Positions 1 to 9,673 of a stretch of DNA of 64,000 nt are shown in pieces. The notes beneath the pieces are model-generated. The model was not told the DNA's origin. It did not search any database and worked only from the letters and a program-made list of their open reading frames with translations. The DNA comes from Mycoplana rhizolycopersici. Lineage in GTDB: Bacteria; Pseudomonadota; Alphaproteobacteria; Rhizobiales; Rhizobiaceae. Each line of letters begins with the position of its first letter. Position 1 is the first letter of the stretch. Made by a program: the position numbers and the translations under genes. The DNA lies in contig NZ_JABXYK010000023.1 of assembly GCF_013378445.1 (NCBI RefSeq), positions 1 to 64,000 on the forward strand, in the 5' to 3' direction.

Positions 1-698
1 TTGAGACGATCGCCACAATGAGTGATGATCAGCTCATCAACTTGCCTGCTGCAAGTTGACCCGTTCCCGGCCCTGTCCGGAAAGCTCGAGGATCGCCCGA
101 GCTACACCACTCCCTGGGACATCATCACGGGTCGCCAAGCTGAAGGAGGAACTGCCCGCCGGAGGCGACGGTCAAGGCCCTGCACGAGCGCAATGTGCGG
201 GTGCGTGTACTGACCAACTCGCTGGCTTCGAACAACCAGCTCGCCGCGCATTCAGGCTATTCCAACACCCGCAGACGCCTGCTCGAGAACGGTCTGGAGC
301 TTTACGAGTTGCGGCCGGACCCCGACGCCTTCCGGCCGGGCTGGTCGCTCCGTTCCGGGCTCTCGCGGGCGGCCTTGCACACCAAGGCCATGGTCTTCGA
401 CCGCAAGGCCGTGTTCATCGGCAGCTTCAATCTCGACCCGCGATCTGCCGTGATCAATACGGAAGCCGGCCTCTACATCGAGAGCCCGGAACTTGCCGAG
501 AGGCTGATGGCCTAAATGGCGACCGGGGTCGCGCCCGCCAACAGCTACCGTGTCTTCCTCGACACCAACCGCGGGATCGTCTGGGAGACGGTACGGAACG
601 GAACGATCGTCAGCTACCGGGACGAGCCCGAAACGGGATTCGGGCGGCGGTTCGTCGCCGACTTCGTGAAACTCCTGCCGATTGACTCGCAAGTCTGA
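1..698 (+). pseudogene. Broken phospholipase D / cardiolipin synthase-family gene (3' part)
   Basis: The frame around 195-512 encodes the C-terminal half of a PLD-superfamily enzyme, with the second catalytic HKD motif HTKAMVFD followed by IGSFNLDPRS. A TAA at 513-515 interrupts it. The same frame then continues through 516-698 with family-like sequence (YRVFLDTNRG, GRRFVADFVKLLPI), so a single nonsense change at a probable Tyr codon has cut the protein. Upstream, the frame is closed by a TGA at 141-143, and the first 140 bases read sensibly only in another frame, so there is also an upstream frameshift or deletion. The first HKD motif would lie before the window. A working family member would use phosphatidyl substrates at the membrane. 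Family assignment is good; loss of function is inferred from the two lesions. Confidence 0.75.
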
Positions 699-886: not shown

Positions 887-1372
887 CTATGAGCTCTTGG
901 CGCACGCAGCGGCATTTTGTTCCTGGGCCTTTGTGCCCACGAGTGAGAGATACAGCTCCTCAGCGGTGAGGGCAGCGCGTATTGACTTTCGAACATCAAC
1001 CGAATGCAACGCACGGGCGACCGTGGCGAGAACAGCCAAATGGGTTCGGTTTTCAGCCGGTGTCAGCAGGCAGAAGACAATGTCCACGGGCATGCCGTCG
1101 ATGGCTTCGAAGTCTATCGCCCTTTTCAGCCGCACAAGCAGGGCCAACGGAGTACTGATGCCAGGAACGGGCGCATGCGGAACTGCAATGCCTTCACCAA
1201 TGCCCGTGGAGCCCAGCAATTCGCGGTTGTTCAGCGCTCGAAAAACATCGCTTTCCTTGACGCGGAGCGCATTGGCCGCGCTCTTTGACAGCGCATGAAG
1301 AAGCTGCAGTTTTGATGCCGCAGCGACGTCGATATCGACGCGCTCCGGGCTTAGGAAATCGGTTATGTTCAT
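887..1372 (-). CDS. ptsN: PTS EIIA-Ntr-like regulatory protein (PtsN family), last gene of the kdp operon
   Basis: The 161-aa single-domain protein matches the nitrogen-type PTS EIIA fold. It has the active-site region GIGEGIAVPHAPVPG with His66 as the expected phosphorylation site, and later LLTPAENRTHLAVLA typical of the family. No EIIB or EIIC partner is present, so the role is regulatory rather than sugar uptake. It starts 30 bp after the kdpE stop on the same strand, so co-transcription with kdp is likely. EIIA-Ntr is known to bind KdpD in E. coli and to affect Kdp activity in Rhizobium, which makes this placement functionally sensible. It is probably a second ptsN copy dedicated to kdp, since the usual chromosomal ptsN sits near rpoN; that copy is not in the window. 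The last ~10 residues are unlike the family core. Confidence 0.85.
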   Translation of the reverse strand: MNITDFLSPERVDIDVAAASKLQLLHALSKSAANALRVKESDVFRALNNRELLGSTGIGEGIAVPHAPVPGISTPLALLVRLKRAIDFEAIDGMPVDIVFCLLTPAENRTHLAVLATVARALHSVDVRKSIRAALTAEELYLSLVGTKAQEQNAAACAKSS

Positions 1373-1402
1373 GATTCACGCACGTCTGGGTCGAGTGTTG
1401 TG

Positions 1403-2101
1403 TCAGTTCTGGTCCGGCTCGCGCAGGCGATAGCCGACCCCGGTCTCTGTGGTAATGTATTCGGGTTGATCGGGGCTGCGCTCGACCTTCTGGCGAAGCT
1501 GACGCACGTAGACCCGCAGATACTGAACGTCAGCAGACCCGCCCCAGATCTGCTTCAGAAGATGTTGGTGGGTGATGACCTTGCCCGCATGTTGAACAAG
1601 GATGCGCAGGATGTCGTATTCCTTGGGAGACAGCTTGATCTCATTGTCCCCCACCTTGACGATGCGCTTCACCAGGTCGACGGAAAGATCGCCAGTCTTG
1701 AACACGGGGCGCTCGCCCTGCTGCTGGAGCCGGTGGCGAAGTGCTACGCGCAGGCGAGCGGCAAGCTCCTTCATTCCGAACGGTTTCGTGACATAGTCAT
1801 CGGCCCCGTTCTCCAGAGCGTTGACGATGCCCTGCTCGTCGGTCCGGCTGGAAAGCACGACGACCGGCAGTTCCAGTCCCTCGTTGCGCCATCGCGCGAG
1901 GAGATCGTGACCGGCGATGTCGGGCAAGCCGAGATCGAGAAGGATCAGGTCCGGCCGGTCTTCGCCGACCAGAGCGATTGCATCTTTTGCGTTGATCGCC
2001 TCGACGACGGCGTATCCTTCGCTGGCCAGCCCCACCCGAAGCAACTTTCGGATGGCAGGCTCGTCGTCGACGACAAGGACTTTCACGGTAGAATTTGTCA
2101 T
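1403..2101 (-). CDS. kdpE: KdpE, OmpR-family response regulator of the kdp operon
   Basis: The 232-aa regulator has an N-terminal receiver (acidic pair at residues 12-13, phospho-acceptor Asp56 in LILLDLGLP, conserved Lys in VTKPF) and a C-terminal winged-helix domain with the KdpE-typical LSPKEYDILRILVQHAGKV. Its ATG overlaps the kdpD stop in an ATGA tetranucleotide at 2098-2101, which fixes the start; the frame stays open 42 codons upstream but that part lies inside kdpD. The protein should be phosphorylated by KdpD and activate the kdp promoter under K+ limitation. A candidate tandem-repeat site lies at 9814-9834. Confidence 0.95.
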   Translation of the reverse strand: MTNSTVKVLVVDDEPAIRKLLRVGLASEGYAVVEAINAKDAIALVGEDRPDLILLDLGLPDIAGHDLLARWRNEGLELPVVVLSSRTDEQGIVNALENGADDYVTKPFGMKELAARLRVALRHRLQQQGERPVFKTGDLSVDLVKRIVKVGDNEIKLSPKEYDILRILVQHAGKVITHQHLLKQIWGGSADVQYLRVYVRQLRQKVERSPDQPEYITTETGVGYRLREPDQN

Positions 2102-4803
2102 GTCAGATTTTCCGCATATGGCGCGTCCGTCGGAACAGGCATCGTGATCGTGAAGATCGCGCCCGATCGATCCGCCCTGTTTGTTGCCAGGATCGTTCCA
2201 CCCATCGCCTCTATGAACCCCCTGCAAATCGAAAGTCCTAGGCCCGTTCCGGCGCGGACGTGGTCACCCTTTCGAACGCGGTAGAAGCTGTCGAATATCC
2301 GCTCGAGATCGGCGCTTGGAATGCCGGGGCCCTCGTCCATGACCTGCAGGAGGACGCCACGGCCATCAGCCCTCGCCCGGATCAGGATCGTGGAGTTCGC
2401 TGGCGCATATTTCGCCGCGTTGTCGAGCAGGTTGAAGAGTACTTGCTCGAACAGCACGGGATCGAGCTTCAACATGGGAAGGTCGGCAGGAATATCGACA
2501 ACAGCCCTGTGTCGCGTCAGGATCTTCTGCGCCCGGCGCAGGGCGGTGCCGACGATGTCGCCGACAAAATTGTAGGATGCATTGGGCTCGGTCGCACCGG
2601 ACTCGATCTTCGTCATGTCCAGCAGATTGGCGATGAACCGGTTGAGCCGTTCCGACTCGTCGACGACGGTCGACAGCAGGTCCGCGCGATCTTCCTCCGG
2701 CATCGAGGCGGAATAGTCGCGCAGGGTTCCTGCCGCACCCATGATGGCGGCAAGCGGCGTCTTGAGGTCGTGCGAGATTGATGTGAGCAGAGCCGAACGA
2801 AGCCGGTCCGCCTCGGCCGCCAGGCGCGCCCGGTCGACGTCGGCGACCAGTTGCACCCGCTCGATCGCAAGCGCCGCCTGGTCTGCCAAGGCATCGAACA
2901 ACCGCTGCTGTTCCGGCGTCAGAAGTGGCCCCTGCCTGTCGTCGTCGAGACCGACGACGCCGATGGCCGAGCGGCCTGTCCTCAGCGGCAGATAGAGACG
3001 CTTGGCGCCTGGCAGCGTGTCGGCGCCGCGGCCCGCCGGCCGGTTATTCTCCCATGCCCAGCGAGCGGCTGCGATATCGGCGTCGACGAGCGTATCGTCG
3101 GGCGGATAGCCTGCCTTTACTGCGATCGTCTCATCCTCCGGCATCAGGATCACCACCCGCACCTTGAGCATCAGCGCAATCTGGTGGGCGGTCGCCCACA
3201 ATACGTCGTCCAGCGTTCCGGTGCTCGCGAGCTTCTTCGCGAAGAGATAAAGCTCTTCCGTCGTCCTGGCCCGCTGGCGCGCCGCTGCTGCCTGGCGCTG
3301 AACCCGCGCCGTCAGATTGCTCGCCGTGACCGCGACCACCAGGAAGAATACCAGCGCCAGAACACTCTCCGGATCCCGGATCGTCAGCGTGTACTTCGGC
3401 TCGAGAAAGAAAAAATTGAATGCCAGTGCGCTGGCGACGCAAGCATAGAGTGCCGGCCATAGGCCAGCCGTCACCGCAGAGGTGAGCACGGCAATCAGGA
3501 AGACGAGCGCCAGATTTCGAACATCCAGGAACTGATCCAGGAGGACGCCCAAGGCGAGCGCGCCCGATACATAAAGGGTGCCCAGTAGATACGGCTGCAA
3601 CCTGAACTGGGGGGATGGCGGCGCGGTCTTGACACCCGTTGATGCTGGCGGCGCGCGCTCTGCCCCGGATACCACGTGCACGTTGATATCGCCGGCGATG
3701 CGGATCAGCTCGTGAGCCACCGATCCTTCGATCATCTCCCGCCAACGTCGCTTTTCCGGCTTGCCCACCACCACATGCGTGAAGTTGTTCGCGGCCGCGT
3801 GGCGGAGAATATCACTTGCCACGCCCTGACCAGGAATGATCATGGCTTCGCCGCCCAACTGCTCGGCGAGCCGCAAGTGCGATGCCAGGCGGTCCTTGTC
3901 GGCATCGCTGAGGTTGACGGATCGTGAGGTCTCGACATGGATTGCCGTCCAGGGAGCGCGGAGGCGGTCCGCCTGGCGCTTGGCATAGCGGACGAGCGAG
4001 GCCCCCCGCGCGCTGTGGTCGATGCCCACGAGCACGCGGTCGCCTGCTCCCCAGGGGCCTGATATGGCATTCGCCTGCATGTGGCTCAGCAACTGGTCGT
4101 CGACACGCTCGGCCGTGCGGCGCAGCGCAAGCTCGCGCAGGGCCGTCAGATTGCCGGGAGAAAAGTAGTTCTCTATCGCCCGCTTCGCCGTCGTCGGCAG
4201 ATAAACCTTGCCCTCATTCAGCCGTTTGATCAGATCCTCGGGCGTCAGGTCGATGATTTCGACATCGTCCGCCCGGTCTATGATCGAATCGGGCACCGTT
4301 TCCCGCACCCTGATGCGCGTGATCTGGGCAACGACGTCGTTGAGGCTCTCGATATGCTGAACGTTCAGGGTCGTGTAGACGTCGATCCCTTGCGCGAGGA
4401 CCTCTTCCACATCGAGGTAGCGCTTCGAATGGCGGCTTCCGTCCACATTGGTGTGCGCCAGCTCGTCGACGAGTACAAGCTGCGGGCGGCGGTCGAGAAT
4501 GGCGTCGATATCCATTTCTTCCAGGGTTTGTCCCCTATACTCGACCTTGCGGCGCGGTATGACCTCGAACCCGTCGACGAGCGCCTGGGTCTCCTTGCGG
4601 CCATGTGTCTCGACGACGCCGATCACGACGTCGACGCCGTCTGCCTTTCGCGCGTGGCCCGAGACCAGCATCTCGTAGGTCTTGCCGACGCCCGGCGCGG
4701 CACCGAGAAAGATCTTCAGACGACCGCGCCCTTCGCGCTCGGCATTCTCGAGGAGGGCATCCGGTGAAGGCCGTGCCTCGGCATCGCGTCTTTCGTCGGG
4801 CAT
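2098..4803 (-). CDS. kdpD: KdpD, K+/turgor sensor histidine kinase
   Basis: The 901-aa protein shows the full KdpD order. The N-terminal KdpD domain has the Walker A motif GAAPGVGKT at residues 34-42 and VLVDELAHTN near 110-119. A universal-stress-protein-like domain follows at ~255-380. Four close membrane segments lie at ~405-495, then a GAF-like domain at ~515-650. The HisKA box SISHDLKTPL has His678, and the ATPase domain carries DEGPGIP and GTGLGLSICRGF. It senses low K+ and turgor and phosphorylates KdpE, with which it overlaps by 4 bp. It is separated from kdpC by 54 bp that contain a strong hairpin. A ptsN-like gene downstream suggests added control by EIIA-Ntr, known to bind KdpD in E. 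coli. Confidence 0.96.
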   Translation of the reverse strand: MPDERRDAEARPSPDALLENAEREGRGRLKIFLGAAPGVGKTYEMLVSGHARKADGVDVVIGVVETHGRKETQALVDGFEVIPRRKVEYRGQTLEEMDIDAILDRRPQLVLVDELAHTNVDGSRHSKRYLDVEEVLAQGIDVYTTLNVQHIESLNDVVAQITRIRVRETVPDSIIDRADDVEIIDLTPEDLIKRLNEGKVYLPTTAKRAIENYFSPGNLTALRELALRRTAERVDDQLLSHMQANAISGPWGAGDRVLVGIDHSARGASLVRYAKRQADRLRAPWTAIHVETSRSVNLSDADKDRLASHLRLAEQLGGEAMIIPGQGVASDILRHAAANNFTHVVVGKPEKRRWREMIEGSVAHELIRIAGDINVHVVSGAERAPPASTGVKTAPPSPQFRLQPYLLGTLYVSGALALGVLLDQFLDVRNLALVFLIAVLTSAVTAGLWPALYACVASALAFNFFFLEPKYTLTIRDPESVLALVFFLVVAVTASNLTARVQRQAAAARQRARTTEELYLFAKKLASTGTLDDVLWATAHQIALMLKVRVVILMPEDETIAVKAGYPPDDTLVDADIAAARWAWENNRPAGRGADTLPGAKRLYLPLRTGRSAIGVVGLDDDRQGPLLTPEQQRLFDALADQAALAIERVQLVADVDRARLAAEADRLRSALLTSISHDLKTPLAAIMGAAGTLRDYSASMPEEDRADLLSTVVDESERLNRFIANLLDMTKIESGATEPNASYNFVGDIVGTALRRAQKILTRHRAVVDIPADLPMLKLDPVLFEQVLFNLLDNAAKYAPANSTILIRARADGRGVLLQVMDEGPGIPSADLERIFDSFYRVRKGDHVRAGTGLGLSICRGFIEAMGGTILATNRADRSGAIFTITMPVPTDAPYAENLT

Positions 4804-4857: not shown

Positions 4858-5427
4858 TTATTGGGCAGCATCCCCGTCAAGCGCAAGGTTCAGCGCAAGG
4901 ACGTTGACCACGGGTTCGCCGATGAAGCCGAGTTCACGGTCCGTGACATGCTCATCGACCAGCGCCTTGACCGCAGCCTCATCAAGTCCCCGCGCCCTGG
5001 CGACGCGCGCCACCTGGAAATAGGCGGCTTCGGGCGAGATGTGCGGATCAAGTCCGCTGCCCGATGTCGTCACGAGATCCATAGGGACGGGGGCGGCGGG
5101 ATTCGTCGCCTTCAGCGCCTCGGCATCGGTCTTGATACGGTCGATCAGCTTCGCATTGGTCGGCCCGAGGTTGGAACCGCTGGAACTGGCGGCATTGTAG
5201 CCGTCACCGGCGGCCGAAGGCCTCCCATGGAAATACTGGTCTCCGGTGAAGGCCTGACCGATCAGTTCGGAGCCGACGACCTTTCCGTCCTTCTCGATCA
5301 GGCTTCCATTGGCCTGATGCGGAAAGAGAGCCTGGGCGATGCCCGTCATCCCGATCGGATAGACCAACCCGGTCAGGACGGTCAGGGCGATGATCATGAC
5401 AATCGCGGGTCTTACTTGCTTCCACAT
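4858..5427 (-). CDS. kdpC: KdpC, stabilising subunit of the K+-transporting ATPase
   Basis: The 189-aa protein has one N-terminal membrane anchor ([28 protein letters not shown], given here in parts: residues ~9-36) and the periplasmic KdpC domain. Typical motifs include [29 protein letters not shown] and [19 protein letters not shown]. KdpC joins KdpA and KdpB in the inner-membrane complex. The gene starts 11 bp after the kdpB stop, in the standard B-C order. Length is normal for the family. Confidence 0.96.
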
Positions 5428-5438
5428 GGGTGTGATCC

Positions 5439-7526
5439 TTATGCGAGGCCGAGTGTCGTGATGACGACGTCGATCAGTTTGATGCCGATGAAGGGAACGA
5501 TGATGCCGCCAAGGCCATAGATCAGCAGGTTGCGCGATAGCAGCGCCCCTGCACCGACAGGCCGGTATTTCACGCCCTTCAGCGAGAGCGGGATCAACGC
5601 CACGATAATGAGGGCGTTGAAGATGATCGCCGAGAGAATCGCGCTCTCGGGGGTCTCAAGCCCCATGATGTTAAGGGCGCCAAGTTGCGGATAGAACGCC
5701 AGGAACATGGCGGGGATGATCGCGAAGTACTTGGCGACGTCATTGGCGATGGAGAAGGTCGTGAGCGCCCCGCGTGTCATGAGGAGCTGCTTGCCGATCT
5801 CGACGATCTCGATGAGTTTCGTCGGGTCGGAATCAAGGTCGACCATGTTGCCGGCTTCGCGCGCCGCAACCGTGCCGGTGTTCATGGCGACACCGACGTC
5901 CGCTTGCGCAAGCGCGGGTGCGTCATTGGTGCCGTCGCCGCACATCGCAACGAGCTTGCCCTTGGCCTGCTCCTCGCGGATAAGGTTCAACTTGTTCTCA
6001 GGCGTTGCCTGCGCGAGAAAGTCGTCCACGCCCGCCTCCGCGGCGATCGCCGCGGCGGTCATCGGGTTGTCGCCGGTGATCATCACGGTGCGGATCCCCA
6101 TGCGCCGCAGTTCGGCGAAGCGCTCCCGGATGCCACCCTTCACGATGTCCTTCAGATGGACGACCCCGAGCAACCGGCCGTCCTTGACCACGGCGAGCGG
6201 GGTGCCGCCCGCCTTGGCGATATCGTCGGCAATAGCCTGGATCTCGCGGGCCGCCAGCGGCTCGTGTACCGTGACAGCTGCGGCGCTGCCCGAACCAGTT
6301 AGCGCGGCCTTGTTGACGTGTTGAAGGACGGCGTCGACTGCCCCCTTGCGGATGCTGGAGCTGTCGAAATCGACGCCGCTCATCCGGCTTTGCGCCGTAA
6401 ACGGTACGAAATGCGCGTGCAGGCTTCCCATGTCACGGGCACGGATACCGTATTTCTCCTTGGCGAGCACAACGATGGAACGCCCTTCCGGCGTCTCGTC
6501 GGCCAGCGATGCAAGCTGCGCCGCATCGGCCAGTTCCTGTTCGGTAACGCCTCGGACCGGCTTGAACTCCGTGGCCTGGCGATTGCCAAGCGTGATGGTG
6601 CCGGTCTTGTCGAGCAGCAGCGTGTCGACGTCGCCCGCCGCCTCGACGGCGCGGCCGGACATCGCAAGCACGTTGAAGCGTACGAGCCTGTCCATGCCGG
6701 CAATGCCGATGGCCGATAGGAGGGCGCCGATCGTTGTCGGAATCAGCGTAACGAAGAGCGCGACGAGAATGAGAACCGGAATGTAGCCGCCGGCGTAGGT
6801 GGCGAAGCTCGGGATGGTCGCCGTCGCCAGCACGAAGATCAGCGTCATGCCGGCAAGCAGGATATTGAGCGCGATCTCGTTTGGCGTCTTCTGGCGTTCG
6901 GCGCCTTCGACGAGGGCGATCATGCGGTCGATGAAGGTCGAGCCGGCAGCAGCGGTAATCCGCACACGGATCCAGTCGGACAGAACCTGCGTGCCACCCG
7001 TGACCGCGGACCGGTCACCGCCGGATTCACGGATCACCGGAGCGGATTCGCCGGTGATGGCCGCCTCGTTTACGGAAGCAACGCCTTCGATGACTTCGCC
7101 GTCGGATGGGATGATATCGCCCGCCTCCACCAGCACGACATCGCCAACCTTCAGACTGGTGCCGGGGACGACCTTGTAGTTCTTGGTATCGTCACCCTTC
7201 AGAAGCTTGGCCTGGGTTTCGGTACGCGTGCGGCGTAGCGATTCCGCCTGTGCCTTGCCTCGGCCCTCGGCCACCGCTTCGGCAAAATTGGCGAAAAGCA
7301 CGGTGAACCAGAGCCAGATGACGATCTGGAAGGAAAAGCCGATATTGCCCTGGCCGATGATCAGGTCACGGATCAAAAGGACGGTGGTAAGCGCCGAAAC
7401 GACGGCAACGACGAACATCACCGGGTTCCGGGCAAGCGTCCTCGGATTAAGTTTCCGGAAGGCATCGCCAATGGCGGGTATGAGGATGCGAGCGTCCATG
7501 ATGCTCGATGTTTTGGACTGGCTCAT
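5439..7526 (-). CDS. kdpB: KdpB, P-type ATPase catalytic subunit
   Basis: The 695-aa protein contains the actuator motif TGES (residues 158-161), the phosphorylation motif [10 protein letters not shown] with Asp306, and the hinge motifs TGDNPMTA and [16 protein letters not shown]. Several membrane segments match the usual KdpB topology. It hydrolyses ATP to drive K+ uptake through KdpA. The start at MSQSKTSS is preferred over an upstream in-frame start 27 codons earlier, because it gives the family length and has an appropriate GAG-rich site upstream. A small membrane-protein gene at 7567-7740 sits between kdpA and kdpB, an insertion in the usual gene order. Confidence 0.96.
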
Positions 7527-7566
7527 AGGAGACTCCAGCTTGATATTGCGAACGCACCGCGACCCA

Positions 7567-7740
7567 TCAGATCGCTGCGAAAAGGTAAATGAACGCCCTG
7601 CCGACAAGCACCAGCGCCGCCATCCCGACCACGATCAGGCAGAGGATGGCCGAGACGGGTGGCGGCTGCGCCCCATCCCGCGCCGGCGTTTCGGCGCGAG
7701 AAAGGAAGGGTGTGCGTGATTGGTGGCCGACGTAGCCCAT
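7567..7740 (-). CDS. 57-aa single-span membrane protein between kdpA and kdpB
   Basis: A short open frame runs from ATG (7740-7738) to TGA (7569-7567). It starts 9 bp after the kdpA stop and ends 40 bp before the kdpB start. The first ~30 residues are polar and proline-rich (ending AQPPPVSA). The rest is one hydrophobic span ([16 protein letters not shown]) followed by [10 protein letters not shown]. The tight packing in the kdp operon and the clean transmembrane profile argue that it is expressed. I do not recognise a named family. By analogy with KdpF it could be a small accessory subunit or stabiliser of the Kdp complex, which is inference only. Confidence 0.6.
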
Positions 7741-7749
7741 GACACCACC

Positions 7750-9453
7750 TCAGAAGGTCTGGCCGAGGAGCATCGCGAAATGCTCGACGATCGGACCGAC
7801 TGCGAGTGCCGGGAAGAACGTCAGGCCGCCGACGATCAGGATGACGCCGCCGAGCAGACCGACGAAAAGTACCCCGTCGGTCGGGAACGTACCTGCCGAG
7901 GCGGGCACGGACTTCTTGCCCACGAGCGAGCCAGCCATGGCCAGCGCCGGGATGATGACCAGGAAGCGCCCCATCAGCATCGCGATGCCGAGGGTGAGAT
8001 TGTACCAGGTGGTGTTCCCCGTGAGGCCGCCGAAGGCCGAGCCGTTGTTCGCCGCTGCCGACGTGTAGGCATAGAGGATTTCCGAGAAGCCGTGCGGGCC
8101 GGGGTTGGCGGTCGATGCCACGGCATCCGGCAGCACGGTGGCAATCGCCGTGAAGCCCAGCATCGCGAGCGGAAGGCAAAGAATGGCGAGAACAGCCATC
8201 TTGACCTCTTTGGCCTCGATCTTCTTGCCCAGATACTCCGGCGTGCGACCGACCATCAGGCCTGCGACGAAGATCGCGAGGACGACGAACATCAGAACGC
8301 CATAGAAGCCTGCGCCGACGCCACCGATGATGATCTCGCCGAGTTCCATGTTGATCAGCGGAATGAGCCCGCCGAGTGCCGTGAAGCTGTCATGCATCGC
8401 ATTCACAGCACCGCAGGAGGCTGCCGTGGTGACGGCGGCGAACAGGGCGGAAAGCGCAATACCGAAGCGAGCCTCCTTGCCCTCCATGTTGCCACCCTCC
8501 AGGCCGAGCGCATGGACCAGCGGGTTGCCGGCGGCTTCCGCCCAGTAGCAGACCGCGGCGCCCGCGAGGAACAGTACGCCCATTGTGGCGAAGATCGCCC
8601 AGCCCTGGCGTTGGTTGCCGACCATGCGGCCGAAAACGTTGGTCAGCGCCGCGCCGATTGCGAAGATCGATACCATCTGGATCAGGTTGGAGATCGCGTC
8701 CGGGTTCTCGAACGGATGTGCGGCATTGACGTTGAAGAAGCCACCGCCGTTCGTGCCGAGCATCTTGATTGCGACCTGGGATGCGACCGGGCCGACGGCT
8801 ATTGTCTGCGTCGCCCCCTCGAGCGTCGTTGCCTCGACATAGGCGCCGAGCGTCTGAGGCATGCCGCGATAGACATAGACGAGGGTCAGCACAACGCAGA
8901 GCGGCAGGAGCACGTAAAGCGTGGTCCTGGTCAGGTCGACCCAGAAGTTGCCGATCGACTTGGTCGATGCCCTGGAGAATCCGCGTATCAGCGCCACGGC
9001 GATGGCGATGCCGGTTGCCGCCGAGACGAAGTTCTGAACCGTCAGGCCGGCCATTTGCACGAGATAGGACATCGTGCTCTCGCCACCGTAGTTCTGCCAA
9101 TTGGTGTTGGTCATGAAGCTGGCAGCGGTGTTGAAGGCAAGCTCAGGCGGAACCGCGGGCATTCCGGCCGGATTGAACGGCAGGCCGCCCTGCAGTCGCT
9201 GGAGAAAATAGAGAAGGAGAAAACCTGCGAGGTTGAAGAACAGCAGCGCCGCGGCGTAGGTCGTCCAGTGCTGCTCCTCCCGTTCGCTTGTGCCGGCGAC
9301 GGCATAGAGGCCGCGCTCAACCGGACCGAAGATCCATGAAAGAAGCGTGCGTTCTCCATTGAAGACGCGCGTCATGTAGCCGCCGAGCGGCTTCACGAGC
9401 AAGGTAACGATCCCGCAGAAAAGCAGGATCTGTATCCAACCGTTGATAGTCAT
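7750..9453 (-). CDS. kdpA: KdpA, K+-translocating subunit
   Basis: The 567-aa polytopic protein is related to K+ channel-type transporters. Filter-like loops are visible, including [15 protein letters not shown] (residues ~112-126) and [20 protein letters not shown], with further segments [15 protein letters not shown] and NNGSAFGGL. It forms the K+ pathway of the KdpFABC pump in the inner membrane. It starts 33 bp after the kdpF stop. Length and motif order are normal. Confidence 0.97.
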
Positions 9454-9592: not shown

Positions 9593-9673
9593 TTAGAGGT
9601 TGCCGCAAACCCTGACGTAGGCGAACGACAGGGCGAAAAAAACGATGCCTATTGCGAGGACGACAATGTCCAT
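9593..9673 (-). CDS. 26-aa hydrophobic leader peptide gene upstream of kdpF
   Basis: A 26-codon frame from ATG (9673-9671) to TAA (9595-9593) encodes MDIVVLAIGIVFFALSFAYV followed by a short tail ending in GNL. It is a single membrane span and ends 16 bp before kdpF. Similar short peptides precede kdpF in several bacteria to my recollection, but I cannot check this. It is probably the first gene of the kdp operon; a role as a regulatory leader peptide is an alternative. Confidence 0.6.
   Translation of the reverse strand: MDIVVLAIGIVFFALSFAYVRVCGNL

Follow-up and report, generated by a model that had tools for sequence, protein, structure and literature searches.

What purpose might be served by an EIIA-Ntr gene at the end of a kdp cluster? 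This question is raised by a gene near the start of the window, i.e., the whole 64,000-nucleotide stretch of Mycoplana rhizolycopersici DNA that was analysed. The original prediction held that an EIIA-Ntr-type gene with an active His66 follows kdpE after 30 bp on the shared strand, and that its product is a dedicated regulator of the K+ system, produced only when kdp is on and giving feedback on KdpD. Positions 887-2101 comprise exactly this gene, ptsN2, and kdpE, and ptsN2 stands at the end of a cluster with the order kdpFABC-DE-ptsN (Table 1). The linkage of ptsN2 to kdp has already been described: a 2026 review (PMC13104625, citing Barabote and Saier 2005) reports that ∼10% of alphaproteobacterial genomes have an additional ptsN that shares an operon with kdpABCDE, and uses the name ptsN2 for the copy in the kdpDE cluster. 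The window gene is a further PtsN2.

Table 1. The kdp cluster of the window, listed from ptsN2 to kdpF.
Feature	Position	Strand	Remarks
ptsN2, EIIA-Ntr-type	887..1372	-	161 aa, ATG start, His66
spacer kdpE-ptsN2, 30 bp	1373..1402	-	kdpE ORF ends at 1403
kdpE, response regulator	1403..2101	-	start at 2101; 4-base overlap with kdpD
kdpD, sensor kinase, 901 aa	2098..4803	-	KdpD, Usp, DUF4118, GAF, HisKA and HATPase domains
kdpC	4858..5427	-	ORF named by eye; translation matches the kdpB-adjacent ORF in three related clusters
kdpB, start codon uncertain	5439..7607	-	ORF named by eye; relatives at 79-82%
kdpA	7750..9453	-	PF03814, 829 bits; sole KdpA in the genome
kdpF, 29 aa	9487..9576	-	PF09604, 43.2 bits (cut-off 21.2)

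The structural part of the prediction was upheld by the open reading frames, the Pfam matches and the sequence motif. The ptsN2 product contains a single Pfam domain, PTS_EIIA_2 (PF00359), at 92.3 bits against a cut-off of 27, and its residue 66 is a His within a VPHAP motif, the predicted phosphorylatable active-site residue. The expected Pfam domains were likewise found in the KdpE and KdpD of the window, for which the best NCBIfam models are those of KdpE and KdpD, yet with scores below the curated cut-offs (213.2 vs 325 and 788 vs 1123, respectively). As read from the sequence, the start of kdpE and the stop of kdpD share the bases ATGA.

Beyond ptsN2, only an ORF on the opposite strand was seen, and ptsN2 thus seems to end the cluster. 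A consensus-based scan of positions 600-2200, with other promoter types outside its coverage, found no minus-strand promoter-like site anywhere in this region and no terminator-like site in the spacer between kdpE and ptsN2. The one minus-strand terminator-like site in the scanned region lies within ptsN2, and this count is below the mean of 1.4 in shuffled sequences. No clear purine-rich ribosome-binding site was seen by eye ahead of the ptsN2 ATG. Co-transcription of ptsN2 with kdpDE is most likely, and the 30 bp gap and site-free spacer are consistent with it.

Two small ORFs flank the cluster. The opposite-strand ORF (window 195-515, plus strand, 106 aa) is convergent with ptsN2, encodes a PLD-like domain (PLDc_2, 58.7 bits) and resembles a fragment of a longer gene. 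At the other end, immediately upstream of kdpF, a hydrophobic ORF of 26 aa (window 9593-9673, minus strand) has no Pfam match above cut-off and may encode another small membrane protein belonging to the kdp operon.

Two PF00359 genes were found in the M. rhizolycopersici assembly (5.6 Mb, 78 contigs): besides the window copy there is one on C3. The latter is preceded by an hpf-like ORF and the end of an rpoN-like ORF, both identified by eye. The concern that the window gene is the only ptsN of the genome is therefore dispelled: with a second EIIA in an rpoN-hpf-ptsN setting (PtsN1), the window gene is an extra, kdp-linked copy, and the genome has both an EIIA beside kdpDE and another ptsN elsewhere, as is expected of a PtsN2. 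HPr and enzyme I are each encoded by two genes in this genome, so that candidate genes for the phosphorylation of PtsN2 are present. By eye, a 755 aa enzyme I ORF resembles the GAF-type PtsP, one HPr gene lies ∼1 kb away from chvG-like and chvI-like ORFs, and the other HPr and enzyme I genes are found together near a dihydroxyacetone-kinase-like ORF.

A second full-length KdpD-type kinase is encoded elsewhere in the genome (L231:8013-10721; G000 contig C1, ∼356 kb), with PF02702 at 311 bits, HisKA and HATPase domains and a weak GAF domain. No kdpE- or kdpABC-like ORF was recognised beside it, its neighbours being unrelated-looking ORFs. A second full kdp system in need of its own adaptor was considered, and is ruled out by the single KdpA and the lone second KdpD.

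The binding of EIIA-Ntr to KdpD in E. coli, on which the original prediction drew, is borne out by citations in the papers discussed here, and KdpD as the target is backed by work on relatives. In S. fredii, both PtsN1 and PtsN2 bind KdpD in two-hybrid and pulldown assays (PMC9239096); in R. leguminosarum, KdpD is likewise bound by both proteins, and the expression of kdpABC is EIIA-Ntr-dependent (PMC3665714). PtsN1 is reported to be the major EIIA of S. fredii: growth was not delayed in a mutant of ptsN2 alone, double ptsN1 ptsN2 mutants grew worse at low K+ than single mutants, and an effect of ptsN2 on nodulation depended on PtsN3 (PMC9239096). Co-transcription is described there for kdpFABC only, in the parts of that paper available to us, and neither kdp nor potassium is mentioned in the available parts of PMC2405797. 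The active form of EIIA-Ntr is given as phosphorylated in P. putida and unphosphorylated in the others (PMC13104625), which means that the sign of its effect differs between species.

In light of this published rhizobial work, in which PtsN1 also binds KdpD and dominates while PtsN2 is additive, the word "dedicated" is not supported, and production only when kdp is on likewise goes further than the evidence. Feedback on KdpD is possible and, by the published rhizobial sign, would be positive. We consider it probable that the window gene is the orthologue of rhizobial PtsN2, an EIIA-Ntr paralogue whose gene closes the kdp cluster and which would aid PtsN1 by positive feedback. From a transcript shared with kdpDE, ptsN2 would yield a protein whose His66 would be phosphorylated by a PTS-Ntr chain, PtsP-NPr, for which the genome has candidate genes. 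Unphosphorylated PtsN2 would then bind KdpD and raise KdpDE-driven expression of kdpFABC, as has been reported for relatives. Once on, the operon would supply more EIIA from the gene beside KdpDE, as an aid to PtsN1 and not as the sole dedicated regulator. A strictly dedicated K+ regulator that is made only when kdp is on and exerts negative feedback on KdpD, one form of the original inference, would also suit a gene that is last in its cluster, behind a spacer in which no same-strand promoter-like site was found, in a genome with a separate ptsN1. However, it is very unlikely, given that reports on rhizobia attribute kdp activation to unphosphorylated PtsN, that PtsN1 shares the KdpD target there and dominates, and that the consensus scan is blind to other promoter types.

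The assignment to PtsN2 was examined against the published proteins. PtsN2 of the window resembles that of S. fredii CCBAU45436 (L219, on pSF45436b), which we infer from its place beside kdpE to be the published PtsN2, in its position after kdpE (32 bp there), its His66 and 56% identity. The two species differ in that S. fredii has three PtsN homologues (PMC9239096), as opposed to two PF00359 genes here. R. leguminosarum (R. johnstonii) 3841 likewise has an EIIA after kdpE (L220, on pRL11; 41 bp there), annotated as 'PTS sugar transporter subunit IIA', but this protein shares only ∼41% identity with the window PtsN2 and belongs to a different sub-clade. The rpoN-linked PtsN1 of the genome has the EIIA domain and His66 in common with PtsN2, at ∼38-39% identity.

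On the NCBIfam PtsN equivalog TIGR01419 (cut-off 138.7), the genome's PtsN1 scores 178.2 bits and the window PtsN2 only 100.6, and the latter is therefore not filed as a PtsN1 equivalog. This shortfall, along with a match to the fructose IIA model (82.9 vs 103.5), could be taken to mean that a sugar-type EIIA of the fructose or mannitol class happens to lie beside kdpE and has no part in K+ control. We regard this as extremely improbable, since the best scores are those of PtsN models, the kdp-linked proteins of named rhizobia fall below the same cut-off (S. fredii L219, 116.8; R. johnstonii L220, 102.7), as does one upstream-type protein (see below) at 104.7, and the gene order recurs.

Recurrence was assessed by searching 297 genomes of the family (Rhizobiaceae) for KdpE at E ≤ 1e-70, which gave 74 places in 73 genomes. 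All 74 were read, as the window and 73 stretches (L143-L215), and the best EIIA match per stretch was taken from a tblastn search (E ≤ 1e-6). An EIIA neighbour was found at 23 places. At 20 of these the EIIA gene follows kdpE in the same orientation, with 15-326 bp between the two, which indicates that ptsN2 is not a chance neighbour. The downstream gene is intact in 18 of the 20 and degraded in L153 (two frames) and L154 (start missing). In the three remaining cases (L236, L237 and L238, from three genomes of the family) the EIIA sits between kdpC and kdpD, in the order kdpA-kdpB-kdpC-EIIA-kdpD-kdpE; a literature search found no title on this order, and we make no claim that it is unpublished. 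Near kdpE at the other 51 places no EIIA was detected; among these, L214 ends with its contig inside kdpE, so that the downstream side cannot be seen, and L211 ends just past kdpD, so that an upstream copy could be missed.

Named records with the downstream gene are S. fredii CCBAU45436, R. johnstonii 3841, Phyllobacterium zundukense and R. calliandrae. A KdpE scan of named genomes gave at least 80 loci, mostly from other phyla; three were examined (L033-L035), and Rhizobium calliandrae was the one with an EIIA. In S. fredii NGR234 and S. americanum CCGM7, kdpE is present and no EIIA was detected within 7.7 kb. The number of kdpE places at which EIIA went undetected, these two named genomes included, indicates that the gene is dispensable.

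Phylogenetic placement was based on a tree of 56 proteins: 22 encoded downstream of kdpE (the 18 intact survey genes and the four named records), three upstream-type proteins, 27 taken as PtsN1 and four others. Of the PtsN1 set, gene neighbours were checked for the genome's own copy only, the other 26 being EIIA loci of relatives without a KdpE match. A single branch, which has support of 94/90 and appears in 94% of 200 bootstrap trees but is not starred, sets all 22 downstream proteins apart. Within them, the window PtsN2 and its nearest row, S. fredii L219, fall in a starred group (96/88) made up of nine proteins encoded after kdpE, which places the window gene with rhizobial PtsN2. The PtsN1 rows group only if three of the four others are included (30 rows, 85/85). 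A second EIIA was also noted in a same-genus genome (L216; G005 contig C17, about 1747-2166, minus strand), with no kdpE in the 6 kb read and a very long branch (3.18) that makes its place in the tree unsure.

His66 is conserved throughout the alignment, in 22/22 downstream, 27/27 PtsN1 and 3/3 upstream rows. The idea that some PtsN2 have lost this residue and act as natural unphosphorylatable activators is thereby ruled out; eight rows that seemed to lack His66 were six cases of an over-narrow motif and two broken frames. Two other positions differ between the groups: the residue after His66 is Ala (20) or Thr (2) in downstream proteins and Gly in 25/27 PtsN1, and position 113 (window numbering) is Lys in 27/27 PtsN1 and Asn in 15/22 downstream proteins. 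The window PtsN2 has Ala at both.

Rates of change bear on whether the second copy does anything of its own. In five comparisons with the window, dN was 0.312-0.548 for PtsN2 and 0.082-0.172 for KdpE; the dN/dS of PtsN2 between the window and S. fredii (0.312/1.846) is clearly below 1, and all such ratios are rough because PtsN2 dS, at 1.7-2.3, approaches saturation. Within the R. leguminosarum group, the two proteins are alike in three comparisons (dN 0.027-0.036 for PtsN2 vs 0.030-0.039 for KdpE), and against R. calliandrae PtsN2 is again the faster (0.243; KdpE 0.073). Downstream PtsN2 is thus fast-evolving between groups, not everywhere. A redundant duplicate without its own function at the KdpD step, retained or lost at random, would account for this faster divergence in the five window comparisons and the one with R. 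calliandrae, for the 51/74 places where EIIA was undetected and for the two broken downstream genes. Nevertheless, such a duplicate is an unlikely explanation, as His66 and its surrounding motif are preserved in all 22 tree rows, dS is well above dN, and the place beside kdpE is constant throughout the clade. An accessory PtsN2 acting with PtsN1 is the reading we prefer. With the window, a divergent genome joins those whose kdp operon encodes an EIIA of its own; the published picture is unchanged. The survey offers comparative material (presence and absence of PtsN2, two operon positions) for asking how K+ sensing gains from a second EIIA when PtsN1 is already there.

The two operon positions also suggest, tentatively, that the kdp operon may have acquired an EIIA on more than one occasion within the family, giving a fast-evolving post-kdpE clade and a separate kdpC/kdpD clade in three genomes. 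The three upstream proteins form their own starred clade (100/99). The branch separating them from the downstream proteins has a support of 43/0, and a tree constrained to unite the two is worse by 2.45 log-likelihood units (p-AU 0.407), so their joining is not rejected; repeated recruitment is somewhat less likely than not. If it did occur, operon-encoded EIIA would be a repeated, selected way of tying KdpD to PTS-Ntr.

The KdpD side of the interaction was compared through the GAF residues D517 and D570 of S. fredii KdpD, reported to be key for PtsN1 binding; a GAF(D517F) variant lost binding to both PtsN1 and PtsN2 (PMC9239096). Unlike S. fredii, the KdpD of the window has Glu at the place of D517, which counts against the preferred reading, and it has Asp at that of D570. 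D517 was considered as a marker of partnership with PtsN2 and is ruled out, Asp being found there irrespective of the presence of PtsN2: in 18/24 KdpDs with a downstream EIIA, 3/3 with an upstream one and 39/53 without either.
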